A stretch of DNA of 47,669 nt, taken from a virus. The DNA lies in the IMG/VR virus record IMGVR_UViG_3300028115_000033, positions 1 to 47,669 of that record. One strand, 5' to 3'. Numbering within the stretch: the first letter of the stretch is position 1; every line of letters starts with the position of its first letter. The position numbers were made by a program, and so were the translations under genes. Shown here one piece after another: positions 7,290 to 44,905 of this stretch. The notes under the pieces are model-generated. The model saw only the letters and a list, made by a program, of their open reading frames with translations. It ran no database searches and had not been told where the DNA came from.

Positions 7290-7292
7290 AAT

Positions 7293-7601: not shown

Positions 7602-7605
7602 TTCA

Positions 7606-7613
7606 TATAAATA
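7606..7613 (+). promoter_or_regulatory. Late promoter box predicting a leaderless gp25 mRNA
   Basis: Exact TATAAATA ending 5 nt before the gp25 ATG (spacer TTGAT). With the T4 geometry (box at -13 to -6), +1 is the A of the start codon. No Shine-Dalgarno is present upstream of the ATG. Confidence 0.7.
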
Positions 7614-7618
7614 TTGAT

Positions 7619-8050: not shown

Positions 8051-8051
8051 A

Positions 8052-28484: not shown

Positions 28485-29226
28485 TAAAGTATTTTTCCAA
28501 TCCTATATATCCATTATCATCTAGTTTGTAAGTACCGTCTTTATATTTTTTTCTTTTCCATCCATTAAAAATACAAATATTATAATCTTCGTTATAAAAG
28601 TATTTTACCTTACTGATAGAATCATAAGGATTATAATAGTTATTTTCATCTATTCCATATAAACGTGAATATACTTCTCCTCTAGGTAACCAATTAAGTT
28701 TATCAAAATGATGAATATACAAATACGGATCCGTTCCATTGTACATTAAAGCATAATGATCTAAATTATCTTTAAATTTTTTCCAAGCCCAGGTACAATC
28801 GCCTTTCCATATCATAACCGAAGCATTCAAATCCATATCATAGTTTGGTGCTTGTGGAGTTTTTAAATGAAAATGCGGTTTCCAATAAGCTTTGACAAAA
28901 CATATTTTATTGTCAACACAGTATTTTGGTAAGTGAGTTATATCATTTTGTATAATAATATCCAAATCAAAATATATTGTTGTTTCTTTTGTAGGCTTTT
29001 CAAAAAATGAATGAAGTTTAACCCAATATGGATAGTCCTCGGTCTTGTAATCTTCCCATTCTTTTGGTAACGGTACTATTTTAATATCTTCGTAAATTTT
29101 TTCAGAATTTTCTGTGTGACAATAGAAATCAAATTTTTCTTTAAAGTTTTTTTTTACCATTCTGTACAAACGATTTACGTGTTCAAAAGAAAATTTATCA
29201 CCATACTTTATACATACTATTTTCAT
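28477..29226 (-). CDS. Glycosyltransferase (GT-A fold, DxD), 249 aa
   Basis: It begins MKIVCIKYGDKFSFEHVNRL, a common start of short GT-A proteins. TTIYFDLDIIIQNDITHLP contains the DxD (Asp87-Leu-Asp89). DLNASVMIWKGDCTWAWKKF matches the SSI/ASVMIW.GD segment also seen in the SPASM-like fusion protein (NSSIISWTGDVSHIWKKF), so these two transferases are related. KLNWLPRGEVYSRLYGID follows. It overlaps the carbamoyltransferase end by 4 bp (ATGA) and the methyltransferase start by 8 bp. Donor and acceptor unknown. Confidence 0.82.
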   Translation of the reverse strand: MKIVCIKYGDKFSFEHVNRLYRMVKKNFKEKFDFYCHTENSEKIYEDIKIVPLPKEWEDYKTEDYPYWVKLHSFFEKPTKETTIYFDLDIIIQNDITHLPKYCVDNKICFVKAYWKPHFHLKTPQAPNYDMDLNASVMIWKGDCTWAWKKFKDNLDHYALMYNGTDPYLYIHHFDKLNWLPRGEVYSRLYGIDENNYYNPYDSISKVKYFYNEDYNICIFNGWKRKKYKDGTYKLDDNGYIGLEKYFND

Positions 29227-30698
29227 TTTCTTATCATCCTATCGTTTATAACTAACAAATCTAAAGCTGTTCTGTTAAATGTATTTATTGCCTGTTTAGG
29301 ATTCTCTACTATAGGTTCCTGACAATTAAAACTAGTATTTAATAACATAGGTATACCTGTTATTTTATAAAACTCATTTATGATATTATAAAATTTTTCA
29401 TTAAATTTTTTATTAACTGTTTGTATTCTAGCAGTACCATCAACGTGTGTAATTCCAGGCACTTTATCAGTTTTAACTTTACATATTCTACTCATATACG
29501 GACTAGGTAATCTTGTATCAAAATATTCTTTGTAATGTTCTTCTAATACTGTAGGTGCAAATGGTCTAAAGTCTTCTCTCATTTTAATTGTACTATTAAT
29601 AATATCTTTAATATTTGGATTGCGTGGATCCGCAAGTATTGATCTATTTCCTAATGCACGATTACCACTTTCTGATTTTCCTTGAAACCAACCTACTATT
29701 TTACCGTCAGCAATGGCCTGTGCAACTTCTTTATAATTCACTTCTTTACCTTCATTGTATTCATAATCTTTACCTGCAAATGTTTCTGATTTATGTATAT
29801 TGTTGTTTAGTACGTAATCAGCGTGTTGATATATGCCTATTGCCTGACCTTCATCACCTACAGCAGGTGGTACAAATACATTTTCATAATGCTTTGTAAA
29901 TTCTTCGTTCATATATCCATTATAAGCAACACCACCTGCAATACAAAGATTATTACAACTCTTTAACGGATACACATGTTCTTTTATCTTATCTATTGTA
30001 AATTTTTGTAGTGTAAATGCTAAATCTTCTTTACCAAATTTTTCTAAATTAATTAGTTTACTTTTTTTTTCATTTTGTAATAGTAAATCAAAAATATTAT
30101 AGTAATAATCATTATAACTACCATATCCAACAAGTCCCATTAGTTTACTTGCGCCAAGTGATCCAAAACCTGTTAATTTCGACATATCGTTCCACAATCT
30201 TCCTAAAGGTAAATGTTTTGACATATCTATTATGTTCTCATACTTGTCTATAAAAATACTTTTAAAGTTATATCCCATACCATCTATTGCAAAAATATCA
30301 GATTCTTTAAAATTTGAGTTTAGATAGGCATATGTAGAGTGTGCTTGATGGTGATCTATGTAGTAAATATTATTTTTATTATAGTGGTCCCATAACTTTT
30401 TAGGTTTAAAATTTAATAGTTCTTTATCAAAAGGACTGTTGATACTTTTTAATCCACCTTGTGTAAAAGAAAAGGCCAGTATATAATCTTTATTTTTTTT
30501 AAAATATTCATTATAAAAATCTATACTTAATCTGTAATCATCAATGTTCATTTTTTGCTCATCACTATGGTGTGGATATGCGTCTAAATGTAACGGCACA
30601 TTGTGTTTGAATCTGGTATATCTTTCTCTTTGATTATGAAATATACCATCATACGTATTGTGATCATGTAAGTTTAATGCGACACTATAAATTTTCAT
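29223..30698 (-). CDS. Carbamoyltransferase (NodU/CmcH/TobZ family)
   Basis: A 491-aa protein. The Kae1-like N-domain has IDHHQAHSTYAYLN with the metal-binding histidines His116/117 and His120, and FAIDGMGYN. The middle has CNNLCIAGGVAYNGYMNEEF and VFVPPAVGDEGQAIGIYQHA. The C-domain has SGNRALGNRSILADPRNP, the ATP/carbamoyl-phosphate signature. Family members transfer a carbamoyl group to a hydroxyl of a sugar or antibiotic. At 491 aa it is somewhat short compared with 550-600-aa bacterial members, but all key motifs are present. It most likely carbamoylates a sugar made by this operon. It overlaps its neighbours by 14 bp and 4 bp. Confidence 0.92.
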   Translation of the reverse strand: MKIYSVALNLHDHNTYDGIFHNQRERYTRFKHNVPLHLDAYPHHSDEQKMNIDDYRLSIDFYNEYFKKNKDYILAFSFTQGGLKSINSPFDKELLNFKPKKLWDHYNKNNIYYIDHHQAHSTYAYLNSNFKESDIFAIDGMGYNFKSIFIDKYENIIDMSKHLPLGRLWNDMSKLTGFGSLGASKLMGLVGYGSYNDYYYNIFDLLLQNEKKSKLINLEKFGKEDLAFTLQKFTIDKIKEHVYPLKSCNNLCIAGGVAYNGYMNEEFTKHYENVFVPPAVGDEGQAIGIYQHADYVLNNNIHKSETFAGKDYEYNEGKEVNYKEVAQAIADGKIVGWFQGKSESGNRALGNRSILADPRNPNIKDIINSTIKMREDFRPFAPTVLEEHYKEYFDTRLPSPYMSRICKVKTDKVPGITHVDGTARIQTVNKKFNEKFYNIINEFYKITGIPMLLNTSFNCQEPIVENPKQAINTFNRTALDLLVINDRMIRK

Positions 30699-31302
30699 AA
30701 ATTAAATCAGCTATTATTTTTTGTCCTTCAGCATTTGGATGTCTGTCTTGTTCAGATATAAAATGAGTATTTTGATCTAGTTTATTATGAATAGAATAAC
30801 CTCCTATACCTTTTTCAATCGGCCAACCAATAAATCTTTTTTCATCAATTTTTTTAGAAATTGAATTGGTTAATAATGTTTTTAAATCTAAACCACTTAT
30901 CATTTGTACTTGTTTATATGGTAAATCATATCTTTCACAAAAAATTTGAAACATGTAAAAATATCTTAGACTTCTACAAGTATAATACTTTGAGTCTCCT
31001 CTATCATCATTTCTTAAATTTGTCCATATATTGTTAGTTTGATAGTCACGTCTTGGTGCTCTAGACCAGGCTGGTATAACTAGTCCTATATTTTTCATAT
31101 TGTTTGACAAATATTCAATTAACGTAGAAAAAATATATTCTTGTCCTGAGCCACTATAACTCAAATTAACACAATCCATATTGAGTTTATTTGCTAATAT
31201 TTCGGGCCATTTAGGCCAAGAACAATCCATATTAGGATGAAAAATGGAATTAAATTTTTTATAACTCCAACTGCAACCACTAACTAGTAATATTTTTTTC
31301 AT
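30685..31302 (-). CDS. SGNH/GDSL-type hydrolase or acetyl-transfer enzyme
   Basis: A 205-aa protein with block I KILLVSGCSWS (Ser11 as nucleophile), block II MDCVNLSYSGSGQEYI, and block V QDRHPNAEGQKI with Asp186 and His188 as the rest of the catalytic triad. No signal peptide: the hydrophobic start is the first strand of the fold, so it is cytoplasmic or virion-associated. Such enzymes add or remove acetyl or acyl groups on sugars. Between a carbamoyltransferase and an aminotransferase, a role in tailoring a sugar is plausible; a role in the virion cleaving host surface ester groups cannot be excluded. Confidence 0.82.
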   Translation of the reverse strand: MKKILLVSGCSWSYKKFNSIFHPNMDCSWPKWPEILANKLNMDCVNLSYSGSGQEYIFSTLIEYLSNNMKNIGLVIPAWSRAPRRDYQTNNIWTNLRNDDRGDSKYYTCRSLRYFYMFQIFCERYDLPYKQVQMISGLDLKTLLTNSISKKIDEKRFIGWPIEKGIGGYSIHNKLDQNTHFISEQDRHPNAEGQKIIADLIYENL

Positions 31303-32386
31303 TTATGTAAAATTCTTTTATTTTGTTTATTATGTAGTCTTGTTGATTAATTGTTAGACTATGATAGCATGGTAAACTTAAAATATTATTACAAACATAT
31401 TCTGTCTTAGGTAATTTTATGCTCGAGTTAAAAAGATGTGTAGGTTCTCTATAATTAATATTTGTAGATATACCATTATTCAAAAGATATTTTTTTAACT
31501 TATTTCTAGTATTAATAGGAGTTTCGATTACATAGGCATAATAAGTGTGTTTACTCCAACTTGTTTCTTCAGGTGTTTTAACAATATGTTTTAAGTATTT
31601 TGTATATCTTCTACATATTTTAATTTTTTTTTCAATCCACTGATCTAGTTTTTTTAATTTGTTTTCAATAATAACAGCTTGTATATTGTCAATACGACCT
31701 TGATAACCTATTTCTTTATACATTGAATTATGTCTTCCATGATCTCTAAACATCTTTACTTTATTAATTAATTTTTTTCTGCCTGTAACAGCACCAGCAT
31801 CTCCCATTGCACCTAAGTTTTTTATTGGATTAAAACTAAAACAAGTTAGATCAACAAGGTTTCCTACTTTTTTTCCTTTATAACTAGATCCAAAACTTTG
31901 AGCTGCATCTTCTATTAAATATAAATTATGTTTTTTTGCAAATCTCTTTAGTTTATCTATATCTGGTGTTTGACCATATAAATCTACAAATAAAATTGCT
32001 TTAGTATTTTTATAATACTTTAGTTTTTTAATATCTAAATGAAAATATTTGTCTATATCTACAAAAATTGGTTTTGCACCGACACTTAAAATAGATTCAG
32101 TAGTGGATATAAATGTATGTCCTACAGTAATAACTTTATCATTTTTACCAATGTTTAATGCCCTTAAAGCACAGATTAATGCCATAGTGCCTGAAGATAC
32201 AGAAGCACAAGATTTTGATTTTGTGTAATTGCAAATTGATTGTTCAAATTTCTCTACAGTTTTGCCTGTTAAAAAATCTGAATTAGTAATAATTTCTGTT
32301 ATAGAATTATCAATATCTTTTTTTAATTCTTTATATTGTGAATATAAATCTGTAAAAGGAATATTAATATTTTGTGATCGACTCAT
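31280..32386 (-). CDS. DegT/DnrJ/EryC1/StrS sugar aminotransferase
   Basis: A 368-aa PLP enzyme of normal family length. Seen motifs: IPFTDLYSQYKELKKDID, SCASVSSGTMALICALRALN (phosphate site), VITVGHTFISTTESILSVGA, LYLIEDAAQSFGSSYKGKKV (Asp160) and TCFSFNPIKNLGAMGDAGAV with the PLP lysine Lys189. RDHGRHNSMYKEIGYQGRID is also conserved. These enzymes transaminate keto-sugars bound to a nucleotide, giving amino sugars. The keto-sugar would have to come from a dehydratase such as the SDR next door (32364-33308) or from the host. It overlaps both neighbours by 23 bp. Confidence 0.92.
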   Translation of the reverse strand: MSRSQNINIPFTDLYSQYKELKKDIDNSITEIITNSDFLTGKTVEKFEQSICNYTKSKSCASVSSGTMALICALRALNIGKNDKVITVGHTFISTTESILSVGAKPIFVDIDKYFHLDIKKLKYYKNTKAILFVDLYGQTPDIDKLKRFAKKHNLYLIEDAAQSFGSSYKGKKVGNLVDLTCFSFNPIKNLGAMGDAGAVTGRKKLINKVKMFRDHGRHNSMYKEIGYQGRIDNIQAVIIENKLKKLDQWIEKKIKICRRYTKYLKHIVKTPEETSWSKHTYYAYVIETPINTRNKLKKYLLNNGISTNINYREPTHLFNSSIKLPKTEYVCNNILSLPCYHSLTINQQDYIINKIKEFYINEKNITS

Positions 32387-33308
32387 AATATTTTTTTAAT
32401 CCAATATCAAAAGTTATTTTTGGAATATAGTTTAACATATCTTTTGCTTTTGATATGTCTAATGTTCCTCTTGTTGGATATAAATTGTGACTACCTACAT
32501 CTTCAACTTTAGATTTACTTCCAGTTATATCTTTTACTTTTTCTGATAATGTTCTTAAAGAAAATGCTTGTCCAGCGGTTAAGTTAAAACTTTCATTTTT
32601 TACGTCCGAAAATGCAGCTTTTATAAGGCCATCAACAACATCATCTCTAAAAGTAAAATCTGCTTTATTTTTTCCATTATGTAATGTAATAGTCTGATTA
32701 TTAATTGCTTTCTTAAAAAACTTAGGAACAACTCTATCAGGTAAATCATTTAATCCATAAACAGCACTTGGTCTTATAATGATGTAAGACATATTATTTT
32801 TTTTAGCAAAAAGTTTAGTTAGTCTTTCACCTGTTAGTTTTGCTTCACCATAAATGTTTGTAGGTTTTGTATTTGCATCTTCTTTTATACCATCGGTAAA
32901 ATTACCATACACCATACTACTACTTGTATAAATTATTTTTTTCACATTAAATAAACCACAATTATAAAGTATGTTTGTTGTACCACTTATAAGTTTAGGT
33001 ACACCTAAAATAGGATTATTATCAACTATAGATGCTCTAGGATATGCTGCCAGATGTATAACAATATCAGGACTATGTTCAAAGGCCTCTAAACAAGATT
33101 TATGGTCTAAAATATCTCCATTAATAACTTGTATATTTTTGTTGATCCAATTTTTTGTTCTTTGTTTATATAATAAGTTTTCTTCTTCTTTATTCAGTAG
33201 GCCGTAAGTGTCTTTATTATCTAAAACTATTACTGAATTGTTTACACTTAACACTTCAACTAGTTTAGATCCAATAAATCCCAAACCACCTGTAATTAAT
33301 ATTTTCAT
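32364..33308 (-). CDS. NAD-dependent nucleotide-sugar epimerase/dehydratase
   Basis: A 314-aa extended SDR of full length. It shows GGLGFIGS (residues 7-14), VINGDILDH, IVIHLAAYPRAS, IIYTSSSMVYGN (Ser129-131), IYGEAK (Tyr153, Lys157), IIRPSAVYGLND and DFTFRDDVVDGLIKA. It should epimerise or dehydrate an NDP-hexose. Adjacent to the DegT enzyme, it is the likely source of its keto-sugar. It overlaps the upstream gene by 4 bp (ATGA) and the downstream gene by 23 bp. It is clearly different from the short epimerase at 23518-24246. Confidence 0.92.
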   Translation of the reverse strand: MKILITGGLGFIGSKLVEVLSVNNSVIVLDNKDTYGLLNKEEENLLYKQRTKNWINKNIQVINGDILDHKSCLEAFEHSPDIVIHLAAYPRASIVDNNPILGVPKLISGTTNILYNCGLFNVKKIIYTSSSMVYGNFTDGIKEDANTKPTNIYGEAKLTGERLTKLFAKKNNMSYIIIRPSAVYGLNDLPDRVVPKFFKKAINNQTITLHNGKNKADFTFRDDVVDGLIKAAFSDVKNESFNLTAGQAFSLRTLSEKVKDITGSKSKVEDVGSHNLYPTRGTLDISKAKDMLNYIPKITFDIGLKKYYESITKY

Positions 33309-34168
33309 AATTTTAATTCCTCTATTAATATACTTATATTATTTGAATACATTTGTTTTGTAGGTACAGGTCTCTTAAAGTAAACAGAACCACCATCTTT
33401 TATATTTTTATCTCTTAAATAAATTATTTTTTTTCTTAACCATTTACACTCTTGTATTATTCTAGGAGCGGGATCAAAATAAGGTTTTGTGTAAACGTAT
33501 GTATTAAATATTCCTAGAAGATTTTTGACGGGAACAAATATATTATTATAATCTTTATTAATGTAGCTTTCATCATAAGTTATTATACCGTGAGATTTGT
33601 AATTACTTATGACCTTTTCTATTTCTTTATAATAGATTTTATTAGTGCCTAAAAATAAATAATCAAATTGTATGTCTTGTTTTATAGGTTTATATATATC
33701 AAAGTTAATCATTTTCTCAAAATGTTTGCCTACACCATTTGGATATACATCATAATCACATAGATCAAAAACTTTTTTAGGAGTAAAGTATTTTAATGCT
33801 ATTAGATATTCTTTAGGATGATTTTCAGAATAAACTGAAACGAGATTATTTTTAAAAAGTAATCTTAACGATAATAATTGATCTGTACTATAATGATCTC
33901 TATTTAAATATGCTAAAGTTAACATACTTCTACCCATTATTAATGTTATGTCATTTGATGTGGGTGTGTATTCATCAAATATTACATTTTCGTATGTTAT
34001 ATACGACTCTTTAATAGAGTTAGTGTAATCTTCTTTATTAAAATTCTTGTGAGTAATAATAACTAATTGGCATTTAAGACCGATTGAATTTAAGTAACTA
34101 CAATGTTCATAGCTGTAATGTAAAAGGCCATCACCAGGTTTACTTGTACAAACAATATTAATTAACAT
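33305..34168 (-). CDS. Probable glycosyltransferase (GT-B-like), 287 aa; first gene of the operon
   Basis: I am less sure of this family. The N-terminus (NIVCTSKPGDGLLHYSYEHC, then SYLNSIGLKCQLVIITH) looks like a GT-B donor/acceptor half. The C-terminal part has YVYTKPYFDPAPRIIQECKW and LRKKIIYLRDKN, resembling the PR.I.E motif of GT-B enzymes. No DxD. It is preceded directly by an ideal sigma70 promoter whose -10 box is only 5 nt before the ATG, so a leaderless or near-leaderless mRNA is expected. Its stop overlaps the next start (ATGA). Confidence 0.65.
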   Translation of the reverse strand: MLINIVCTSKPGDGLLHYSYEHCSYLNSIGLKCQLVIITHKNFNKEDYTNSIKESYITYENVIFDEYTPTSNDITLIMGRSMLTLAYLNRDHYSTDQLLSLRLLFKNNLVSVYSENHPKEYLIALKYFTPKKVFDLCDYDVYPNGVGKHFEKMINFDIYKPIKQDIQFDYLFLGTNKIYYKEIEKVISNYKSHGIITYDESYINKDYNNIFVPVKNLLGIFNTYVYTKPYFDPAPRIIQECKWLRKKIIYLRDKNIKDGGSVYFKRPVPTKQMYSNNISILIEELKL

Positions 34169-34173
34169 ACTAT

Positions 34174-34202
34174 ATTATAACAGATTTTTATATAAAAGTC
34201 AA
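34174..34202 (-). promoter_or_regulatory. Strong leftward sigma70 promoter of the sugar operon
   Basis: On the minus strand: TTGACT (34202-34197), exactly 17 nt, then TATAAT (34179-34174), followed by 5 nt and the ATG at 34168. The -35 box overlaps the stop codon of the nitroreductase-like gene. It is the only promoter I see for the eleven overlapping genes down to 24697. The predicted +1 falls on or next to the start codon. Confidence 0.8.
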
Positions 34203-34816
34203 TCTTTTATCCAACTTATTACATCATCAATGTGAGGTTTTTTTTCTTTATTATAGTTTACTAATCCAGTTCTATATCCTAATTGCATACTAAAAAGTAC
34301 AGGATCTTTTATAAATGATAATTTTTTCCATAAATCTTTGTGTTTTTCATAATCTGGAAAGCATAATGTATATGAAACATTTATATTTTTTTCTAAACAC
34401 AAGCCTGTTAATATCTTACTAAACATTCCTATTTCTACACAAGTTGCTGCTTTTGCACTATTGTATAATTTAAGATCACAAACGGTATATGTATGTCCTC
34501 TTTTCATTCTATCATATATAACAGGATCAGGATTATTTACCCACCTTGTTGTAAATATTAAACAATATGGGGCTTGGAGTATATTAATATTATTGAAACC
34601 TCCTGATTGGTGACATATTACATCATATAAGTCTTTTTTAATATTTTTATGATTTGGACCTAAAACGTGTACTTTGTATGGATATAGATTTTGCTTTGAA
34701 GCTGTAATTTTAAAAGTTTCTGTTAATATTTTTTTAACAGTATCCATATCAGGATAATTTTCTTGGTCATATTTTGTGGTTTGTTTTCTTTTTTTGTATA
34801 TTTCTGCCAATGTCAT
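34199..34816 (-). CDS. Nitroreductase-like protein, 205 aa
   Basis: It resembles the FMN-binding nitroreductase fold: KITASKQNLYPYKVHVLGP corresponds to the family's A.S..N.QP motif near the N-terminus, AATCVEIGMFSKILTGLCLE to the central helix, and VLFSMQLGYRTG to the C-terminal strand (LG.R). The match is weak and the protein may use a different substrate. It has an exact late promoter box with 5-nt spacing to the ATG and no Shine-Dalgarno (34822-34829). It precedes the sugar operon, whose promoter begins in its stop codon. Role in the pathway unknown. Confidence 0.65.
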   Translation of the reverse strand: MTLAEIYKKRKQTTKYDQENYPDMDTVKKILTETFKITASKQNLYPYKVHVLGPNHKNIKKDLYDVICHQSGGFNNINILQAPYCLIFTTRWVNNPDPVIYDRMKRGHTYTVCDLKLYNSAKAATCVEIGMFSKILTGLCLEKNINVSYTLCFPDYEKHKDLWKKLSFIKDPVLFSMQLGYRTGLVNYNKEKKPHIDDVISWIKD

Positions 34817-34821
34817 ACAGT

Positions 34822-34829
34822 TATTTATA
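34822..34829 (-). promoter_or_regulatory. Leftward late promoter box predicting a leaderless mRNA
   Basis: Minus-strand TATAAATA ending 5 nt (ACTGT) before the ATG at 34816, the only exact late box I found on the minus strand. No Shine-Dalgarno upstream. The 27-bp divergent gap also holds ACTAAATA on the plus strand (34831-34838), 5 nt before the opposite ATG at 34844. Confidence 0.68.
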
Positions 34830-34843: not shown

Positions 34844-35272
34844 ATGAAATTTTATATAACTGGCACTCGTAGAGGCCTTGGAAAAATGTTACGTGAAAAA
34901 TACAATACAGTTGATAGTTTACAAGATTGTGATGTTTTTATAAACTGTAAACACAATGGATTTGAACAAGTTAAATTATTATATCAGGCTGCAGAATTAA
35001 ATAAAAGAATTATCAATATTGGATCTAATTCTCCTGATGAAACAAAAAAAGTCAAACATATTTACGCTGTTGAGAAATCAGCACTAGATAAAGCAAATCA
35101 TCAGTTATTCTATCAAGGAATTAATACAACAATAGTTAGATTTGGATATTTTGATTCTCCTAGAGTAGCACATATAGATAAAAAGAAAATGTCAATTGAG
35201 TATTGTATATCTGTAATAGATTGGGTACTTAATCAACCACATAGAGTAAAAGAAGTTACAGTATGTCCATAG
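34844..35272 (+). CDS. Miniature short-chain dehydrogenase/reductase-like protein, 142 aa
   Basis: The start is set at ATG 34844; an upstream TTG-initiated extension would run into the divergent gene. It has a Rossmann start FYITGTRRGLGKML (TG...GLG), DVFINCKHNG in place of the NNAG strand, RIINIGSNS (serine site) and YAVEKSALDKANHQL (YxxxK pair). INTTIVRFGYFDSPR is the typical following strand. All catalytic elements appear in only 142 aa, against about 240-250 for ordinary SDRs, so spacer helices are missing. It is first in the hydroxylase/aminotransferase series and overlaps the next gene by 10 bp. Substrate unknown. Confidence 0.75.
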   Translation: MKFYITGTRRGLGKMLREKYNTVDSLQDCDVFINCKHNGFEQVKLLYQAAELNKRIINIGSNSPDETKKVKHIYAVEKSALDKANHQLFYQGINTTIVRFGYFDSPRVAHIDKKKMSIEYCISVIDWVLNQPHRVKEVTVCP

Positions 35273-35898
35273 ATTTTTCAAAACTGCAATTTTTACCAAT
35301 AGACATTCCCAACCCTCCAAATGTTTTAAGTGTGTTAGACAGCATATCTTATGATCAAATGATTGTTGATGAATATAGAACTTGTCATCACATTCCTATA
35401 ATGACACGTGATGGAAAATGGAGTGATATAGCATTATTGATGCCTGAATTGATAGAATGGTGTGAAAAGTATTTGTTTACGTGGGCTAAAAAAAGTAGAA
35501 TAATGATAATTACAACACAAGCAAATAATCATAATGCTCCACATATAGATTGTTCTCCTGAAAAATTTAAAACATGGCAACATAAATTTAGATTTGTTTT
35601 TAGGGGTAATGTTGATTCTCTCTATTTTATATCTAAAACGGGAAAAAAATATGTGCCAAAAATAAATAAACCTTACATTATAAGTGGTAAATGGCCACAT
35701 GGAATGTTCAATACGTTTGATAAGACAAAATATACTTTTGCTTTAGGCGCTCCATGGGAACCTGAAGCTGATGATTTGGAATATATGAAAGTTCTTAATA
35801 GGTCTTATAAAAAATATAAAAAATACTATTTGTCTTTTGAAGATGAAATTTTACCCGATAATTATGAAAGTTTATATGAAAGAAAATATTTAAAATGA
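35263..35898 (+). CDS. 2OG-Fe(II)/Asp-Asn hydroxylase-like protein (1), 211 aa
   Basis: It shows the facial triad HIDCSPE (His94, Asp96) and a distal histidine in SGKWPHGMFN (His146), separated by KFRFVFRGNVDSLYFI as in double-stranded beta-helix oxygenases. A basic residue following the distal His (KTKYTFALG) could bind 2-oxoglutarate. Family members hydroxylate Asp/Asn side chains or free amino acids using 2-oxoglutarate and oxygen. It overlaps the SDR by 10 bp and the next hydroxylase by 4 bp, so the three are co-translated. Confidence 0.75.
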   Translation: MSIDFSKLQFLPIDIPNPPNVLSVLDSISYDQMIVDEYRTCHHIPIMTRDGKWSDIALLMPELIEWCEKYLFTWAKKSRIMIITTQANNHNAPHIDCSPEKFKTWQHKFRFVFRGNVDSLYFISKTGKKYVPKINKPYIISGKWPHGMFNTFDKTKYTFALGAPWEPEADDLEYMKVLNRSYKKYKKYYLSFEDEILPDNYESLYERKYLK

Positions 35899-36344
35899 AC
35901 ATAGATATAGAAAAAATAAAAAGTGAATTAAAATTACTGCCTAAGTTTGACGAACAAATTTGTCTTCAAGGTACTAAAGATAATTTAGATCCATTTTGGG
36001 GTGTAGGTAAATGGAATGAGAAATATGAAATGGGATATAAAGAAACAGATTTTAACACATTTATTTTTGATCTACCTTATGTTAACAGTATTTTATCAGA
36101 TTTAAAAATGTATCGTACAAGAGTAATGAATTTAAAATCAAAAACATGTTATACTTATCATAAAGACTTATCAAAAAGAATACACATACCTGTTGAAACA
36201 AATAAAGATTGTTTTATGATTATAAATAATGAAGTAAAACATTATCCAGCTGATGGAAACTATTATGTTGTAGATACTACACAATATCATACAGCTTTAA
36301 ATGCATCTAATCAGGATAGAGTGCACCTAGTAGGAGTTATATAA
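35895..36344 (+). CDS. Aspartyl/asparaginyl beta-hydroxylase-like protein (2), 149 aa
   Basis: The clearest hydroxylase of the three: TCYTYHKDLSKRIHIPVETN with His89 and Asp91, YYVVDTTQYHTALNASN with His132, and DRVHLVGVI with Arg142 for the 2-oxoglutarate carboxylate. The spacing matches the Asp/Asn beta-hydroxylase core, and the protein consists of little more than that core. It should be soluble and cytoplasmic. A protein substrate among the phage fibres is inference. The stop codon lies inside a TATAAATA box that serves the next gene. Confidence 0.85.
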   Translation: MNIDIEKIKSELKLLPKFDEQICLQGTKDNLDPFWGVGKWNEKYEMGYKETDFNTFIFDLPYVNSILSDLKMYRTRVMNLKSKTCYTYHKDLSKRIHIPVETNKDCFMIINNEVKHYPADGNYYVVDTTQYHTALNASNQDRVHLVGVI

Positions 36345-36347
36345 ATA
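36340..36347 (+). promoter_or_regulatory. Late promoter box predicting a leaderless mRNA
   Basis: Exact TATAAATA overlapping the stop of the preceding gene and ending 5 nt (ATACT) before the ATG at 36353. The nearest AGGAG is about 17 nt from the ATG and upstream of the predicted +1, so it would not be in the mRNA. Confidence 0.68.
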
Positions 36348-36352
36348 ATACT

Positions 36353-36646
36353 ATGACAAAAAAAATAAAACTTATACAACAAAGACCATCGGTAGATGTA
36401 GTTTTTTACGAACCAACCGAATCATTTGGAACATTAAAAACTGAGTTTATAAATGCAGGTAAAATGAAAGAAACTATTACAACCATTTCTGAAGATGGTT
36501 TAACTAGATCAACCCTTGCAGAATGGACAACCTTAGATGATTATATCAATTTCGTAAATGATGATCGAGCAATTGAAAACAATAATTTAAGAAACTCACA
36601 TAATGAAACAAATTTAATTTCTTTTAGTTTAGAAGATATTGAGTGA
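36353..36646 (+). CDS. Unknown protein, 97 aa
   Basis: No family is recognised. The sequence is alpha/beta: KIKLIQQRPSVDVVFYEPTE, a helix (TLKTEFINAGKMKET), TTISEDGLTRSTLAEWTTLD and DYINFVNDDRAIENNNLRNS. The pattern looks like a small globular domain with strands flanking a helix. It is probably expressed late from the leaderless-type promoter. Its end overlaps the next gene's GTG start (GTGA). Confidence 0.62.
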   Translation: MTKKIKLIQQRPSVDVVFYEPTESFGTLKTEFINAGKMKETITTISEDGLTRSTLAEWTTLDDYINFVNDDRAIENNNLRNSHNETNLISFSLEDIE

Positions 36647-37089
36647 TTATAAAAAATATTGATTATATAGAAGTTGATAGTTGGCTTAAACAACAAAATC
36701 TTGTAGATACTTGGCATGCAGATTTTTTTGAATGGAAAAAACATTTATTACTTGCTTCAAAAAAATGGCCTTGGATTAAAAAATTCTATAAAGGAAAAGA
36801 TAACTGGTTAGGCATTTTTGATAATGACTTAAAAGCTATATATTGGTATACTATAGTTGATAATGAAATGTATGATGGATTTTTAATTTCAGATAAAAAA
36901 ACTCCAGGTGCAGGTATAAAATTAGCAAGAGCATTAACAGACGTGACTACAAACCAGTGGACAAAAAACTGGTCTATGTGTAGTGATAAATATTTAAAAT
37001 TTAACCAAAGATTAGGTTATGTTGAGCAAGATAAAGTAAAATTAAATAATGGGTATGAGGTTTGGTTATTATGTCGTCAGAAATTTTAA
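36643..37089 (+). CDS. Acetyltransferase-like (GNAT-type) protein, 148 aa
   Basis: GTG start at 36643 overlapping the preceding TGA. The layout fits a GNAT domain: DNWLGIFDNDLKAIYWYTIV (strands 2-4), a middle GAGIKLARALTDVTTN that could be the CoA-binding region, and the C-terminal KFNQRLGYVEQDKVKLNNGY typical of GNAT ends (RLGY). No certain pyrophosphate-binding signature, so the assignment is moderate. It overlaps the aminotransferase by 19 bp. Confidence 0.58.
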   Translation: MIIKNIDYIEVDSWLKQQNLVDTWHADFFEWKKHLLLASKKWPWIKKFYKGKDNWLGIFDNDLKAIYWYTIVDNEMYDGFLISDKKTPGAGIKLARALTDVTTNQWTKNWSMCSDKYLKFNQRLGYVEQDKVKLNNGYEVWLLCRQKF

Positions 37090-38156
37090 GTTTTAAAAAG
37101 ATTAATTCATCAGCAGAACAAATATCTCACGCAGAAAATTATACACTTTACACCACAGATGGTAAAAAGTATATAGACACAATGTCAGGATTGTGGAATG
37201 TACCATTAGGATATTCAAATGAAAGTATAAAATCTGCTCTTATAACGCAAACAAAAAAACTACCTTATACAAGTAATTTTTCAGGATATCATAGTCAAGT
37301 TACTGAAACATATGCTCAACAGATATGTGAAATAACAAATATGAAAAAAGTTTATTTCACAAACAGTGGTAGTGCAGCTGTAGAAACTGCTATAAAACTT
37401 GCACAAAAACCAGTTGCTGTGTGTGGTAAAAATAGTTATCATGGATCAACAATATTAAGTGCTAACGCAAGTGATCAACAAATTAATAAATTTTGGAATA
37501 TTTCAAATCCTTTAAGTGTGTATAAATTCAAAAATAGTGAGGAATTATTTGAAGTAACAAATGGTCTATTTGATATGTCATTTGTTATAATAGAACCTAT
37601 TGTTGGTGCAGGTGGTGTTTATAGTTGGGAAAATGAAGTGTGGACAGTATTGAAAGAGTATCAACAAAAAGGTGGTGTAGTAATACTTGATGAAACGGTT
37701 ACGGGATTTGGTAAATTAGGTACAATGTTTGCTTTTGAAAAGTTTAATTTTCAACCAGATATTTTAGTTTTAGGAAAAGCAATAACAAATGGATATTTTC
37801 CTATGGGTGCTTGTTTAATAAATGAACGAATAGAAAAGTCAATTAAAATGTTTAATCATGGATTTACATATTCTGGTCACCCAATAGGTAGTGCTGTTGC
37901 TTTAGAAACTCTAAATCAAATTAAAAAAACAAATTTAGATCATATTCAAATAAAATCTGCCACACGACAATATGGATGTATGGGAGCTATTGATTTTGAA
38001 ACATCTAAACAGTCACTAACATTCATTAAAAAAATGAGAAAAGAAGGTTACATACTTGAAGATGGTTCAGAAAATATAACAACGGCCGTATTTTGTTTAC
38101 CATTTATATTTAAAGAACACAAGCAATTTGAAGAAAGTATTGAAAGATGTATTTAA
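37071..38156 (+). CDS. Compact class III PLP aminotransferase
   Basis: With the start at ATG 37071 (GAGG at 37057-37060) the protein has 361 aa. Motifs: YFTNSGSAAVETAIKLA (phosphate site), NSYHGSTIL (Tyr123-His124), IIEPIVGAGGVYSWENEV, GGVVILDETVTGFGKLGTMF (Asp207), LVLGKAITNGYFPMGACLIN (Lys236) and HGFTYSGHPIGSAVALETL. The catalytic domain is complete. The C-terminal domain is cut to about 75 residues (YGCMGAIDFE remains), so the enzyme is some 60-90 aa shorter than usual. Family members transaminate omega-amino acids or glutamate semialdehyde-like substrates. Adjacent to a second PLP enzyme and hydroxylases, it may make an unusual amino acid or amino sugar. Confidence 0.88.
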   Translation: MSSEILSFKKINSSAEQISHAENYTLYTTDGKKYIDTMSGLWNVPLGYSNESIKSALITQTKKLPYTSNFSGYHSQVTETYAQQICEITNMKKVYFTNSGSAAVETAIKLAQKPVAVCGKNSYHGSTILSANASDQQINKFWNISNPLSVYKFKNSEELFEVTNGLFDMSFVIIEPIVGAGGVYSWENEVWTVLKEYQQKGGVVILDETVTGFGKLGTMFAFEKFNFQPDILVLGKAITNGYFPMGACLINERIEKSIKMFNHGFTYSGHPIGSAVALETLNQIKKTNLDHIQIKSATRQYGCMGAIDFETSKQSLTFIKKMRKEGYILEDGSENITTAVFCLPFIFKEHKQFEESIERCI

Positions 38157-38941
38157 CACCATCATATACAATTCAGTTTCCAGAAATTAAATCTACTATA
38201 GTAAATTTTTATAACAATATTTACGACCATGAAAAACTAATAAAAAATAGATTTGAGATACAAGATAAATTTATAGAAGATTTTGTACCATGGTTAAACA
38301 AAGGACATATAAAATTTAAAGGTTTAAAAGATTTTAAGTATGTTTATATTACAAATGGCATATCTGAATCTATAACGTTATCTATGTTAGAACATAGTTT
38401 AAGACCTGTTGTAAATGTTAACGAATATCCTGGATATATGTGTCAGGCAAAAGAGTTTTTTAAATCAAATATTAGTTTAAAAAATAAAACAAACTTTTTA
38501 AGTTTACCTTTTTACAATACAGCAGATGAGCATGAAAATACAAAAAACATCTTAACAAAAAATTCATTTATAGATTTGGCTTGGGCAGGTGGATCTGGAG
38601 TAAAACAAATATATGATTTAAGTAAAGTTGGGTATGTTGCTTTTAGTTTTAGTAAAATGTACGGAATACAATATCATAGAGTTGGAATTTTATTTTCTAA
38701 AAAGAGAATAGGTACTTTTGAAATGTATAAAAAAGAGGCATATGTAAATCTTGCTGGTATAAGTTTAGCAGAACAATTGATGCATTTTGAACCTAATTAT
38801 TTTTACGATAAATATAGAAACATAGCAGATAATATCTGTGAAAAACTAAATTTAAAAAAAACTAAAAGTTTGTGGTTTGGAATGAAAGACAATAAAAAAG
38901 TACCTTTACTAAACGAATGGTTAAATGAGAAAATTAAATAA
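38147..38941 (+). CDS. Short class I/II-like PLP aminotransferase
   Basis: A 264-aa fold-type I PLP protein: YVYITNGISESITLSMLEHS (phosphate-site helix), VNEYPGYMCQAKEFF, SFIDLAWAGGSG (Asp143, binds the pyridine N) and VAFSFSKMYGIQYHRVGILF with the lysine Lys170 and Arg178. It ends about 90-130 residues short of typical class I enzymes, so most of the small C-terminal domain is missing, although the active-site core is intact. It overlaps the class III enzyme by 10 bp and the next hydroxylase by 17 bp. It could be an active mini-enzyme or need the neighbouring PLP protein as partner. Confidence 0.75.
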   Translation: MYLTPSYTIQFPEIKSTIVNFYNNIYDHEKLIKNRFEIQDKFIEDFVPWLNKGHIKFKGLKDFKYVYITNGISESITLSMLEHSLRPVVNVNEYPGYMCQAKEFFKSNISLKNKTNFLSLPFYNTADEHENTKNILTKNSFIDLAWAGGSGVKQIYDLSKVGYVAFSFSKMYGIQYHRVGILFSKKRIGTFEMYKKEAYVNLAGISLAEQLMHFEPNYFYDKYRNIADNICEKLNLKKTKSLWFGMKDNKKVPLLNEWLNEKIK

Positions 38942-39701
38942 AGATTTTTACAACATAGCAACTAAAAATGATTGGGTAGACTTATCTAGTTTTTGGTCTT
39001 GGCCTACTGAAGCTATATTAAATGACATAAAGTCGATACCAGATAGACTTTGGTCTAAACCATTTGATGGTGGAAATAAAAAAAAAGGTAAAAAATATAA
39101 TAGACAACAATCTAATATTGATTTACCTGGAACAGAAAAAAATTCTAAAAAAATACCAGCTAGTGGTTGGAAAAGTATTATGTTTTTAAATGATACAGGT
39201 TATAGTGACAATCAAATATTAACGTTTGATGCCTTATACAAAAATCAATGGGAATATAAAAAAAGATTAAAATATGTAAATAGTGTAAGAACGTGGACAG
39301 AAATGACACAGTTTAGTTCTAAATTAAAAACATTCTTTGAAGATCACATATTTCCTTATATAGGTGTTGCTTATATTTTTGTCACAAAATTAGAACCTGG
39401 TGGAATTATTACACAACATAATGATGTGCCAGACGAAGCTGTTGATTTAAAAAAAGATGGTGGGTTGTTTGCGTATGATATGTGTAATGTTTTCAATTTA
39501 TGTTTAAATAATATTCCATACTGTCATTCAGTTTTTAATAATAAAGTTATGCCCTCTTATGAAGGATGTTTGATGTGGACAAATACAGGCAAAGAACATT
39601 TTGTAGTAAACATGAATAGAGAGCCTCAGTATAAAATTATATTTCAAGGTTTTTTTAAAAAACCTTTTAGAGAAAAGGTAGTAAATGAATTTTCAAGTTG
39701 A
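38925..39701 (+). CDS. 2OG-Fe(II)/Asp-Asn hydroxylase-like protein (3), 258 aa
   Basis: The N-terminal 130 residues are specific to this protein (LSSFWSWPTEAILNDIKSIP and a basic stretch KKKGKKYNR). The C-terminal half is a double-stranded beta-helix hydroxylase: YIFVTKLEPGGIITQHNDVP with His165 and Asp167, NVFNLCLNNIPYCHSVFNNK, EGCLMWTNTGKEHFVVNMNR with His225 and Arg232, then YKIIFQGFF. This is the third hydroxylase-type protein in about 4.4 kb, with different flanks and low similarity to the others. The extra N-terminal region may select the substrate. Confidence 0.82.
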   Translation: MRKLNKDFYNIATKNDWVDLSSFWSWPTEAILNDIKSIPDRLWSKPFDGGNKKKGKKYNRQQSNIDLPGTEKNSKKIPASGWKSIMFLNDTGYSDNQILTFDALYKNQWEYKKRLKYVNSVRTWTEMTQFSSKLKTFFEDHIFPYIGVAYIFVTKLEPGGIITQHNDVPDEAVDLKKDGGLFAYDMCNVFNLCLNNIPYCHSVFNNKVMPSYEGCLMWTNTGKEHFVVNMNREPQYKIIFQGFFKKPFREKVVNEFSS

Positions 39702-40272
39702 AGTTAGTACAGATTTTAAATATTTAAAAAATATTTTATTATCAAAAGGTAAAGATAATTATCCATATACCATGGATGATTTTTTTGATGTTGATAAGGA
39801 TATATTTAGTTGTACAACAAATTTAAAAAATAGTTTTATTTTGTTTTTTAAATTGGATAATAATATAATAGGAACATATGCAGCTAAAAAATTACCAGTT
39901 TTAGTGTTTTATGAATATATTACTGGTGTAGCTGATCATAGAGCTAATTTAAAATTAAACACTTGGGAAACAAATTCTTGGTATAGTTCATGTCAGTGGA
40001 TTGATTTGAAATATAGAGGTTCTGAGTATGGAGTATATTTAGATAAATTTAAAAAAAATCTTGTCTTTGATTTGTTTAATGGTGATATTAATTATGCTAT
40101 ACATAAAGAAAGATTAACAAATTATCATTTAAAAAATTTAAGATATACAAATTCTGATTATCTTATGACTTATGATAACGGCATTGGTGGTGCAGGCACA
40201 CAAGAGGATAAACAATATAATATTTGCTATATTAATAAACAACAGTGGAAAAATGTTAAAGAGTTATACTGA
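39685..40272 (+). CDS. Unknown protein, acetyltransferase-like features, 195 aa
   Basis: The N-terminus has FDVDKDIFSCTTN, then strands SFILFFKLDNNIIGTYAAKK and a central CQWIDLKYRGSEYGVYLDKF reminiscent of the GNAT motif A (Q...RG). The C-terminal HKERLTNYHLKNLRYTNSDY LMTYD region resembles the last strands of GNAT proteins. The similarity is weak. It overlaps the preceding hydroxylase by 17 bp and the next gene by 20 bp. It may belong to the same family as 36643-37089, but that is not certain. Confidence 0.52.
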   Translation: MNFQVEVSTDFKYLKNILLSKGKDNYPYTMDDFFDVDKDIFSCTTNLKNSFILFFKLDNNIIGTYAAKKLPVLVFYEYITGVADHRANLKLNTWETNSWYSSCQWIDLKYRGSEYGVYLDKFKKNLVFDLFNGDINYAIHKERLTNYHLKNLRYTNSDYLMTYDNGIGGAGTQEDKQYNICYINKQQWKNVKELY

Positions 40273-40804
40273 TAAACCTGATAATTTTAAATATATAGAA
40301 GAATATAAACACTTTTTAAATTATATAGTAGAAAGAAAAACTGATTACTTATGGAAGAATTGGTTGGATTTTAAAATTGAAGATCAATCTGCTTTAACAG
40401 TAGGAATTGATAACGGTGAAGTTAAAGTAATTTCAAGTATTGTAAATAAACCAATTTGGAAAAAAGGTGTTTATCGTCTTTTAAACAGATATTATGTATT
40501 AGATAGTTATAGAGATGTTGGTGGAACTAAAACTCATAGAGGTGAAGGTTATAATATAGCTCATATATTACTCAATGATCAATTGGAATATTTAAATAGT
40601 AATCTAAAATATTTATTTTATTTTTTAAGTCGGCAAAAAAATAAAAGATTTTTGAACTATTGGGTAAATACATTCAACAAAAAATACGATAAAAATTTAA
40701 CAGTTTCAGATAAAAGATATTGGGTGTGTAATGGAAGTGCCTTTAATTGTCATCAAATTTTAGTTTACAATAAAGATTATGATATTCCATTTACACATAA
40801 ATAA
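40253..40804 (+). CDS. Unknown protein, 183 aa
   Basis: I place the start at ATG 40253 (GTGGA upstream). An earlier in-frame ATG at 40172 would add 27 residues lying entirely within the previous gene. The protein has YIEEYKHFLNYIVERKTDYL, then GIDNGEVKVISSIVNKPIWK and KGVYRLLNRYYVLDSYRDVG, a pattern that may be GNAT-related. It ends with a basic aromatic helical stretch (FYFLSRQKNKRFLNYWVNTF) and KRYWVCNGSAFNCHQILVYN. No catalytic residues can be assigned. Confidence 0.55.
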   Translation: MLKSYTDKPDNFKYIEEYKHFLNYIVERKTDYLWKNWLDFKIEDQSALTVGIDNGEVKVISSIVNKPIWKKGVYRLLNRYYVLDSYRDVGGTKTHRGEGYNIAHILLNDQLEYLNSNLKYLFYFLSRQKNKRFLNYWVNTFNKKYDKNLTVSDKRYWVCNGSAFNCHQILVYNKDYDIPFTHK

Positions 40805-40806: not shown

Positions 40807-40814
40807 TATAAATA
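40807..40814 (+). promoter_or_regulatory. Late promoter box predicting a leaderless mRNA
   Basis: Exact TATAAATA ending 5 nt (GTACT) before the ATG at 40820. No Shine-Dalgarno. It separates the modification gene series from the second fibre locus. Confidence 0.7.
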
Positions 40815-40819: not shown

Positions 40820-41152
40820 ATGGCAGCGATAGCAAACTTAATAGTAGAACAAGGTGCAACCTTTAGCTCATCAATAACAGTTAAAGACTCGGATGGTAAC
40901 GCATTAGACTTAACTGGATATACTGCGTCTGCAAAGATGGCACTTGGCTACAGTTCAACAAGAACAAGAACCACTATTACAACTACAATCAATGAACCAA
41001 CAACAGGTGTTGTTGGATTATCTTTAACTGCTGATCAAACAGCAGCTTTAGATGCACCAGCACGATATGTTTATGACGTTGATATAACTGCGTCAGATAG
41101 TACGGTCACTAGAGTTATTGAAGGAATAATGACTATAAGACCAAATGTTTAA
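40820..41152 (+). CDS. Small beta-sandwich virion protein (BppU-N-like), 110 aa
   Basis: The sequence NLIVEQGATFSSSITVKDSD GNALDLTGYTASAKM, then GVVGLSLTADQTAALDAPAR and YVYDVDITASDSTVTRVIEG, matches the pattern of small receptor-binding or baseplate-upper-protein domains in many phages (beta sandwich, LTGYT motif, YDVDI strand). It ends IMTIRPNV. The gene opens the second fibre locus and is predicted to have a leaderless late mRNA. A fibre-network or adaptor role is inferred. Confidence 0.75.
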   Translation: MAAIANLIVEQGATFSSSITVKDSDGNALDLTGYTASAKMALGYSSTRTRTTITTTINEPTTGVVGLSLTADQTAALDAPARYVYDVDITASDSTVTRVIEGIMTIRPNV

Positions 41153-41731: not shown

Positions 41732-44700
41732 ATGGCAACAATAATAAAAATTAAAAGAACCACAGGCGCTACGGCACCAAGTGGTCTTAATCAAGGAGAG
41801 CTAGCTTACGTTTACGATACTTCGGCAACTAATGCTGGTGCGGGCGGTAATGGATATAGATTATTCATTGGTGACCCAACTTCAACTTCAAACGCTGCAA
41901 TAGAAATTGGTGGTAGATACTATACACAATTGTTAGATCACACACCAGGTACTCTTACAGCAAGTTCTTCAATCATAACAGATTCAAATAATGCAATTGA
42001 TGATCTTTACGTTGGTAACAACGCAACTACAGGTGGTTCAATTAAGTTAAATCAAGCAACTAACAATGGTGCTGGATACATAGCACTTAAATCGCCAAAC
42101 AGTTTATCATCAAATGTAACTTATACTTTACCAAGCACATATTCAAGTGGTCAGTTTTTGACTATTGATGGTTCTGGTAACATGTCATTTGCTGCTGTTC
42201 CGTCAGGTTCATTTACAATTTCTGATGGTTCAACTACCGATACATTTACTACAGGTCAAACTTTAACGTTTACTGGTGGTACAGGTATTGACACAACCGT
42301 TTCTAACAATGAAGTTTCTTATGCTATTGATAGTACAGTTGCTACAGCATCATCAACACACACATTTACAAATAAAACTTTTGACGCAAACGGCACAGGT
42401 AACTCTTTATCTAACGTAGAGGTTGCTGATTTTGCTGGTTCAGCTATCGTTATAGAATCAGAAGGAATTGGTTCTAACGATAATGACACCACTCTCCCCA
42501 CATCAGCGGCTGTAAAGGACTATGTTGATACAGAAATTAGTGGAGTAGCTGCTTGTGATTGGACACCAACTTCAAGTAATACAAACATTGTAATTAACGA
42601 TTCTCAAAACACTACAATGACAGGTACTGAAAATGTTGTTGTTGGTAATAATGCTGGATGTTCTTTAACAACCGGTTCTTGGAATACTTTACTTGGAACT
42701 AATACAGGTAGATATATTACAACAGGTGGTGCTAATATTGGCGTAGGACAATTTGCTGGAAAAGTAACTACTGGATGTCGAAACATTACTATGGGTAATG
42801 CTTCCTTTACATGTGCTACTGCTGGATTAGACAACGTAACTGTTGGTACATACTCTGCTAGTTATTTAGGACAAAATGTAACGTCCAAAGGTAACGTAGT
42901 TATTGGTAATTCTGCAGGTAAATTTACATCTACATCAAATTATAACATTGCTATAGGACATAAATCTGCTTACAGCACGTATGTTAGTGGTACTGGCTTC
43001 TGTGGTAACATCACAATGGGTCGGGAATCAGGTAATTCTAAAAACAATAATAACATTACGATAGGTCAGTTTGCAGGATTTGCCAACGGTTCAGGTATGT
43101 CTGGTAACAATAACATTGGTATTGGTACACAGGTTTTCTGTTCTTCTGGAATGTCAATAAGTGCATATTCAAACACTGCTATTGGTGGTTATGCAATGAC
43201 ATCAATAAGTTCTGGACAAGCAAATACAGGTGTAGGTTCAAATGCGTTAAATGCTATTACATCTGGAAATGATAACACTTCAATAGGTGCTAACTCTGGT
43301 AATTACATATCAACTGGTTCATGTAACTTAAACCTTGGTAGATTTGCAAATGCTGGTTTTCTTGGCGGAACAACTACAGGTAACAATAATATAGTAATTG
43401 GTTACTCTGCAGCTCCTTCAAGTCAAGGTGCTTCTAACGAAATTACTTTAGGTAACACAACACATAATCTATTAAGAATACCTGGTATTAGTACTACATC
43501 AGGTAAATTATTAGTTCACAATGGTTCTGGTTTTGTTGAAGGTGATGTTGATGCTGATAATACAACTGTATCTAATATTGAAGTAGATAACTTTAAAGCG
43601 TCTGCTATTGTAACTGAAGGAGAAGGTATTAGTTCAAACGATAATGATACAACTATTCCTACTTCAGCTGCTGTTAAAGATTATGTTGACAATTCAGTTA
43701 CAGCACAAGACTTAGACTTTCAAGGTGATTCAGGTGGTGCATTATCTATTGATTTAGACAGTGAAACACTTACAATCGCTGGAGGAACTGGTATTGATAC
43801 ATCTGGTTCTGGTAACACATTAACTGTAGGAATTGATAATACAGTTGTTGCAACATTATCAGATACACAAACTTTAACAAATAAAGTATTAACAAGTCCA
43901 GACATTAATGGTGGTTCATTTGATGGTGGAACAATTGGTACTGGCTCTGCTGTTACAGAAGCTCAAATTGATAATTTAAATATCAATGGTAACACAATTT
44001 CTTCTACAAACACAAATGGTGACATCACTATTAATCCTGACGGTACTGGTACAGTAGATGTATCAAGTGCAAGAATAACAAATCTTGCTGAACCGACAGC
44101 AGACTCAGATGCTGCTACTAAATCATATGTTGATGCTGTTGCAGAAGGATTACATGTCCATGAACAAGTACATGCTTACATTGATACTCCTCTTGCTACA
44201 ATCACAGGAAATACTGTAACTTATAGTAACGGTAGTTCTGGAGTTGGTGCAACATTAACATTATCAACTGCTTTAGATATTGCAGGTGGTGATTTAGATG
44301 GTGATACAGATATTACTACAGGTGATAGAATTATCATTGCTGGTGAATCAACGGCTGCTCACAATGGTATCTATGTACTGACTTCAACAACAGTATTAAC
44401 TAGAGCAACAGACTTTGATACACCTACAGAAATGGCTGGTGGTGACTTTGTATGGGTAACACATGGTTCTACATATGCTGACACTGGTTGGGTATTAGGT
44501 GAGGCTGTTGGAACAGTTGGTACAAATGATGTAACTTTTGTACAGTTCTCTGGTCTTGGCCAAATCACTGCTGGTGATGGTATGACTAAATCTGGTAATA
44601 CTCTAAATGTTGTAGGAACAACAAATAGAATTACTGCAAATGCTAACAGTATTGATATTGCTGCTACATATGTTGGTCAAACATCAATTACAACATTAGG

Positions 44701-44905
44701 TACTATCGCAACTGGTACTTGGAATGGTGATGCAATTGGTGAAGTATATGGAGGTACTGGTCAAACATCATACACTACTGGTGATATTTTATATTCAGAT
44801 GGTGCAAACTCACTTGCTAAATTAGCATTAGGTGTTGATGGTAAAATCCTTCAGTCAAATGGTACAAATGTTGAGTACGGAGATTTAGACGGCGGAACTT
44901 ATTAA
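41732..44905 (+). CDS. Large tail fibre with Cys-containing beta-roll repeats, 1057 aa
   Basis: The N-terminus MATIIKIKRTTGATAPSGLN and GELAYVYDTS is an Mtd-N-like attachment domain shared with the two following fibres. Around residues 270-600 are repeats such as GNNAGCSLTTG, NIGVGQFAGKV, NTGVGSNALNAIT and NTSIGANSGNYI, the pattern of YadA-type left-handed beta-roll heads, with Asn ladders and seven cysteines in this region. A module around SAIVIESEGIGSNDNDTTLP and TSAAVKDYVD occurs twice (about residues 235-265 and 630-660). The C-terminal third has VTYSNGSSGVGATLTLSTAL and GDRIIIAGESTAAHNGIYVL, then DFVWVTHGSTYADTGWVLGE, a common host-binding fibre domain. GGGAGAG ribosome-binding site. Likely trimeric and at the tip of the tail. 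Confidence 0.87.
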   Translation: MATIIKIKRTTGATAPSGLNQGELAYVYDTSATNAGAGGNGYRLFIGDPTSTSNAAIEIGGRYYTQLLDHTPGTLTASSSIITDSNNAIDDLYVGNNATTGGSIKLNQATNNGAGYIALKSPNSLSSNVTYTLPSTYSSGQFLTIDGSGNMSFAAVPSGSFTISDGSTTDTFTTGQTLTFTGGTGIDTTVSNNEVSYAIDSTVATASSTHTFTNKTFDANGTGNSLSNVEVADFAGSAIVIESEGIGSNDNDTTLPTSAAVKDYVDTEISGVAACDWTPTSSNTNIVINDSQNTTMTGTENVVVGNNAGCSLTTGSWNTLLGTNTGRYITTGGANIGVGQFAGKVTTGCRNITMGNASFTCATAGLDNVTVGTYSASYLGQNVTSKGNVVIGNSAGKFTSTSNYNIAIGHKSAYSTYVSGTGFCGNITMGRESGNSKNNNNITIGQFAGFANGSGMSGNNNIGIGTQVFCSSGMSISAYSNTAIGGYAMTSISSGQANTGVGSNALNAITSGNDNTSIGANSGNYISTGSCNLNLGRFANAGFLGGTTTGNNNIVIGYSAAPSSQGASNEITLGNTTHNLLRIPGISTTSGKLLVHNGSGFVEGDVDADNTTVSNIEVDNFKASAIVTEGEGISSNDNDTTIPTSAAVKDYVDNSVTAQDLDFQGDSGGALSIDLDSETLTIAGGTGIDTSGSGNTLTVGIDNTVVATLSDTQTLTNKVLTSPDINGGSFDGGTIGTGSAVTEAQIDNLNINGNTISSTNTNGDITINPDGTGTVDVSSARITNLAEPTADSDAATKSYVDAVAEGLHVHEQVHAYIDTPLATITGNTVTYSNGSSGVGATLTLSTALDIAGGDLDGDTDITTGDRIIIAGESTAAHNGIYVLTSTTVLTRATDFDTPTEMAGGDFVWVTHGSTYADTGWVLGEAVGTVGTNDVTFVQFSGLGQITAGDGMTKSGNTLNVVGTTNRITANANSIDIAATYVGQTSITTLGTIATGTWNGDAIGEVYGGTGQTSYTTGDILYSDGANSLAKLALGVDGKILQSNGTNVEYGDLDGGTY
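43451..43479 (+). repeat. 29-bp exact DNA repeat shared with 47568-47596
   Basis: These 29 bases are identical at 43451-43479 and 47568-47596, at the end of the beta-roll regions of two fibres (encoding GNTTHNLLRI). Flanking DNA is diverged. Such islands could allow recombination between fibre genes. Confidence 0.88.

Follow-up and report, generated by a model that had tools for sequence, protein, structure and literature searches.

The phage DNA analysed here carries, beside a surface-sugar-type operon, a cassette of genes (positions 34844-40804) that we judge, with a probability of about one half, to be a swappable, late-expressed tailoring module making or decorating an amino-acid-like substituent for the surface glycan of that operon. 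The window, by which we mean the whole stretch of 47,669 bases (one strand of IMG/VR virus record IMGVR_UViG_3300028115_000033), represents the host recognition cluster of a T4-type phage resembling the pelagimyophages, and its virus infects SAR11-type ocean bacteria. The open reading frames (ORFs, named here by their first position) that the original prediction had placed in the cassette are present where it put them. Fibre genes were found on both sides, as it had proposed, and the neighbouring operon does carry glycosyltransferases, two in number (phrog_1962, at 26263 and 28477). It had favoured hydroxylation of fibre Asn/Asp, possibly followed by glycosylation, and had named synthesis of a hydroxy-amino acid for a surface glycan as the alternative; it is this alternative that fits best.

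Three hydroxylase-type proteins with an HxD...H core had been predicted within the cassette. ORF 35895 is confirmed at the level of sequence as an Fe(II)/2-oxoglutarate (2OG) oxygenase of the Asp_Arg_Hydrox family. It matches Pfam PF05118 with E=1.3e-10 (41.7 bits against a curated cut-off of 22.6), and H89, D91, H132 and R142 (HxD...H plus Arg at +10) are invariant in the family alignment. These ligands correspond to H115/D117/H160/R170 of the caprazamycin beta-hydroxylase Cpz10 (7v4f; PMC9814697), which is the closest solved relative of the family in a sequence-profile search (E=5e-20); human AspH is absent from those matches. Cpz10 acts in an actinobacterial nucleoside-antibiotic pathway, where its substrate for beta-hydroxylation is a glycyluridine intermediate (PMC9814697).

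No family match was obtained for ORF 38925, whose predicted fold supports its assignment as a jelly-roll oxygenase. The AlphaFold2 model, of moderate confidence (predicted template modelling score, pTM, 0.72; mean predicted local distance difference test, pLDDT, 68), has the jelly-roll fold, and Foldseek matched it to 2OG-oxygenase and cupin jelly rolls with E values of 1e-5 to 1e-3 and low or modest TM-scores. Prolyl hydroxylases, Cpz10 and human AspH, itself a jelly-roll 2OG oxygenase, are among these matches. Factor-inhibiting HIF, a protein Asp/Asn hydroxylase, has the same fold. The HND motif and the distal His are invariant in 38925 homologues, and the core ORFs are under purifying selection, with nonsynonymous divergence (dN) for 38925 of about 0.09-0.16 versus synonymous divergence (dS) of about 0.9-2.7.

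The third protein, ORF 35263, is a putative oxygenase on its motif. It gave no family match, a single-sequence structure model with pLDDT 33, and weak similarities pointing to hydroxylases (E=0.003-0.3); we found no homologue elsewhere, an identical contig excepted. Among the 46 window genes, HxD..H with Arg or Lys at +10 occurs solely in 35263 and 35895, while the looser HxD..H is present in seven and therefore means little alone. At +10, 35895 has Arg, 35263 has Lys and 38925 has Gln. Profile-profile comparison among the three oxygenase families gave no significant match.

Two pyridoxal phosphate (PLP) enzymes had also been proposed. The sequence of ORF 37071 identifies it clearly as a class III aminotransferase (E=2.3e-55), and its PLP lysine motif, LGK(A/G)ITNGYFPMG, is invariant bar one position. 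The other, ORF 38147, had no Pfam match; it retains a PLP-type signature, SFSK...R, and shares 26% identity with a phage Mosig protein annotated as an aminotransferase. The proposed short-chain dehydrogenase/reductase (SDR), ORF 34844, matched weakly by itself (E 0.01-0.2) and has a 31% homologue, an SDR-like bacterial protein, in a Bdellovibrionales gene cluster. No confirmation was obtained for the GNAT-like label given to 36643, 39685 and 40253, and the last of these is probably the true start of an ORF first read from 40172.

Homologues of 38925 occur in six other viral loci and those of 38147 add four, giving ten environmental phage loci (loci and contigs are designated L plus a number). 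As far as each contig reaches, and with some variation in the order of the small proteins, these share a core of aminotransferase, 38147 and 38925 followed by two small proteins, in most cases with the tail-fibre assembly gene immediately downstream. In L004, L006, L007 and L015, genes of a glycan-type operon are found upstream. Around the core, ORFs 35263, 36353 and 34844 were found in none of the ten; homologues of 35895 (56-57% identical) are in L015 and L017; a further 2OG-type oxygenase, A10, is in six loci and missing from the window; and L004 has yet another hydroxylase-like protein directly upstream of the core. The core is therefore stable while the oxygenases around it come and go. 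Phage records gave no match to 38925, 35263, 39685, 34844 or A10, and the open-access literature passages matching our search terms contain no description of the core cassette.

Table 1. Coordinates of the cassette and of neighbouring features in the window.
Feature	Position	Strand	Basis
Long ORF in the place of VrlC, 2032 aa	15389-21487		Position after baseplate genes
Divergent surface-sugar-type operon	24697..34816	-	Family matches
TATAAATA late promoter-like site, divergent operon	34822..34829	-	Sequence
SDR-like protein, 142 aa from ATG	34844..35272	+	Weak match, bacterial homologue
Putative 2OG-Fe(II) oxygenase, HID...H, Lys at +10	35263..35898	+	Motif only
Asp_Arg_Hydrox family 2OG oxygenase	35895..36344	+	Pfam profile, ligand residues
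TATAAATA late promoter-like site, directly upstream of ORF 36353	36340..36347	+	Sequence
Small protein, window only	36353..36646	+	ORF
Conserved small protein, GNAT-like by eye (unconfirmed)	36643..37089	+	Present in L004, L006, L007, L015, L017
Class III PLP aminotransferase, conserved active-site motifs; conserved core	37071..38156	+	Family match
Short PLP-type (fold type I-like) protein, SFSK...R motif; conserved core	38147..38941	+	Signature
Predicted jelly-roll oxygenase, invariant HND...H, Gln at +10; conserved core	38925..39701	+	AlphaFold2 model, Foldseek
Conserved core protein, acetyltransferase-like (unconfirmed)	39685..40272	+	33-44% homologues
Conserved core protein, about 183 aa	40253..40804	+	Homologues
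TATAAATA late promoter-like site, ahead of fibre genes	40807..40814	+	Sequence
L-shaped tail-fibre assembly-type protein, positional marker	40820..41152	+	Homology
Tail fibre with Asn-ladder (N..[IV]G) region	41732..44905	+	Sequence pattern

PMC7029224, in the passages concerned, gives the name host recognition cluster to a large variable island flanked by VrlC and the neck genes. The window likewise has tail fibres and glycosyltransferases in a variable region that follows the VrlC position, and the downstream boundary of the cluster lies beyond the end of the window. Its gene order runs from baseplate wedge genes (phrog_219 and phrog_438 matches) through the 15389 ORF, fibre-like genes, the divergent operon and the cassette to more fibres, and is comparable in Pelagibacter phages HTVC008M and Mosig. 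In most of the cyanophages compared, the same fibre-assembly gene closely follows VrlC, so the cassette and operon constitute extra cargo in the window. Besides its glycosyltransferases, the divergent operon encodes a carbamoyltransferase (29223), a DegT aminotransferase (31280), an epimerase (32364), SPASM/radical SAM proteins and a weak methyltransferase-like protein. The same passages describe tail fibres, glycosyltransferases and radical SAM genes in the published cluster and list an Asp/Asn beta-hydroxylase as core to pelagimyophages; however, those matching our search terms contain neither a cassette of aminotransferase, PLP-type protein and 38925 nor a function for the cassette's oxygenases. 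In the 47-72 kb region of Pelagibacter phage Mosig EXVC030M, a divergent operon is likewise followed by a forward cassette that reaches the same fibre-assembly gene and includes two Asp_Arg_Hydrox proteins, TauD, an aminotransferase and an acetyltransferase. However, most of its genes are unrelated to ours (fatty acid desaturase, flavin mononucleotide reductase, peroxiredoxin, methylase), and we found no class III aminotransferase or 38925 homologue in it.

In one rival reading, the oxygenases would act on Asn/Asp in the repeats of the neighbouring fibres, with glycosyltransferases perhaps adding sugar to the new hydroxyl. The predicted Asn ladder is real, as the N..[IV]G pattern is seen in the window fibres, and in most loci the cassette does lie beside fibres. 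The predicted fold of 38925 also resembles that of protein hydroxylases such as PHD and AspH, late-promoter-like sites are common to cassette and virion genes, and the relevant passages of PMC9546862 offer Mimivirus as a viral precedent for collagen-modifying enzymes. Yet the ladder appears in none of the ten related cassette loci, Mosig, HTVC008M or L025 (several contigs being incomplete), so that the proposed co-occurrence of cassette and Asn-repeat fibre is confined to the window. Identities are also discordant. Between the window and L002-L005, 38925 is 85-87% identical and the fibre start only 44-47%; between L004 and L014-L017, 38925 is 44-46% identical and the fibre 77-88%. The Mosig fibre start is 93-96% identical to those of L004 and L005, and its cassette is largely different. 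On these sequence comparisons, cassette and fibre have discordant histories and recombine independently of each other. Nor do oxygenases gather near fibres in cyanophages: in 15 Kyanoviridae-type records with 89 oxygenase domains, 2 lie within 10 kb of the fibre-assembly gene versus 10.4 expected, under a null that ignores the core structural genes filling this region. Clustering was therefore rejected for these phages; a mild excess within 15 kb was seen only in the two pelagiphages (9/19, p=0.024). We consider fibre hydroxylation, the favoured idea of the original prediction, to be very improbable.

T4-type late-promoter-like sites with the sequence TATAAATA number 16 in the window (e.g., at 7606, 12529, 40807 and 45648). 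For fourteen of them, a gene start on the correct strand follows within 55 nt; among other octamers of the same letters, the figure is 9.9%. The site at 34822 stands ahead of the divergent operon, that at 36340 ahead of part of the cassette and that at 40807 ahead of the fibre genes; their placement suggests that the cassette is expressed late, from a start separate from that of the fibre genes. Such control, the location between virion genes and the glycosyltransferases of the neighbouring operon would also suit a product, whether a glycan or an amino-acyl group, that is attached to the fibre or baseplate of the virion instead of the host surface. No acceptor site was identified, however, and the cassette does not vary in step with the type of fibre beside it, though another virion protein could be the acceptor; we regard this as unlikely, if the least so of the alternatives. 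Its more specific form, in which the phage uses its own pathway to produce a new hydroxylated amino-acyl substituent of a glycan and places this on its own fibres or other virion parts, strikes us as quite improbable.

The cassette might instead serve auxiliary metabolism of free amino acids or of iron and 2OG during infection, unrelated to the surface. Oxygenases of the 2OG-Fe(II) type occur at scattered places in these phages, frequently with several in one genome, and non-orthologous oxygenases occur near ferrochelatases in pelagiphages (PMC9599517). HTVC008M matches that pairing, with four tandem 2OG-Fe(II) oxygenases adjoining a ferrochelatase downstream of its fibre genes (L018, 24499-27372). 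A purely metabolic role sits poorly, however, with a core whose order is kept and which stays, within the host recognition cluster, next to fibre genes and a sugar operon, and we think it improbable.

Relatives of 35895 are common in the hosts: 131 of 147 SAR11-order genomes carry an Asp_Arg_Hydrox homologue of this type, in one or two copies, and for this reason the phage gene may have its origin in a host function or imitate one. The SAR11-order neighbourhoods read around these genes (e.g., L027 and L030) showed no homologue of the phage cassette. The Bdellovibrionales contig mentioned above (L037, 413 kb) has homologues of 35895, A10 and SDR 34844, together with two fatty acid desaturases related to those of Mosig, an acyl carrier protein, a QueC-like protein and a radical SAM protein; no fibre was found among the ten proteins scanned. 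A10 matches only this genome among 144 of its class. Homologues standing apart from such fibres, in SAR11 hosts and L037, and a closest characterised relative that acts on a small molecule correspond in part to what the original prediction had named as evidence against itself, namely, homologues found mainly without these fibres and acting on free amino acids. The L037 cluster is chromosomal (1623-9654), has two oxygenases among its genes and is a possible natural-product cluster.

In the glycan-tailoring reading, the two PLP-type enzymes would provide an amino-acid-like or amino-acyl compound by synthesis or transamination, with one to three of the Fe(II)/2OG-type oxygenases hydroxylating it and accessory proteins, perhaps acyltransferases, condensing it further. 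The neighbouring operon, with its epimerase, DegT aminotransferase, glycosyltransferases, carbamoyltransferase, methyltransferase-like and radical SAM proteins, would build and transfer the sugar part. The outcome would be a glycan decoration of an unusual kind, made late in infection and placed most probably on the surface of the infected cell. The host surface seems a likelier acceptor than the virion by analogy with PMC7029224, which, in the passages concerned, links the glycosyltransferases of the host recognition cluster to a change of the host surface.

Several observations weigh against this reading. The late-promoter-like sites and the constant placement beside fibres fit virion modification as well. 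ORF 38147 and three further core proteins belong to no recognised family. Fe(II)/2OG oxygenases usually bind 2OG through an Arg or Lys at +10 of the distal His, and in 38925 this position is Gln235, invariant in seven homologues; another residue, such as the invariant Lys207, could take its place. No homologue of 38925 occurs in the 147 SAR11-order genomes, no cellular counterpart was found for the conserved core of aminotransferase, PLP-type protein and 38925, and the L037 cluster shares only some components with the phage cassette.

Two other pathways were set aside. An ectoine-type pathway combines a class III aminotransferase, an acetyltransferase and a hydroxylase; no ectoine family match was obtained. 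For DNA hypermodification, no thymidine-modifying enzyme was recognised nearby. While 2OG-Fe(II) oxygenases have a wide distribution among marine phages, none of the papers cited here gives them a proven role. A conserved, ordered oxygenase set with PLP-type partners beside a glycan operon points to a concrete class of substrate, and suggests that pelagiphages bring along modules for tailoring surface chemistry, which are exchanged separately from the receptor-binding fibres.

Homologues of 35895 were also found on two contigs from metagenome-assembled genomes (MAGs). In L025, assigned to Flavobacteriaceae, the homologue sits among glycosyltransferase-like genes and adjoins a radical SAM-type gene, as read by eye. 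The fibre genes of this contig are 75-83% similar to those of other phages compared, and on account of them it is probably a mis-binned phage. The other contig, L026, comes from a Chloroflexi MAG and carries a 51% homologue.

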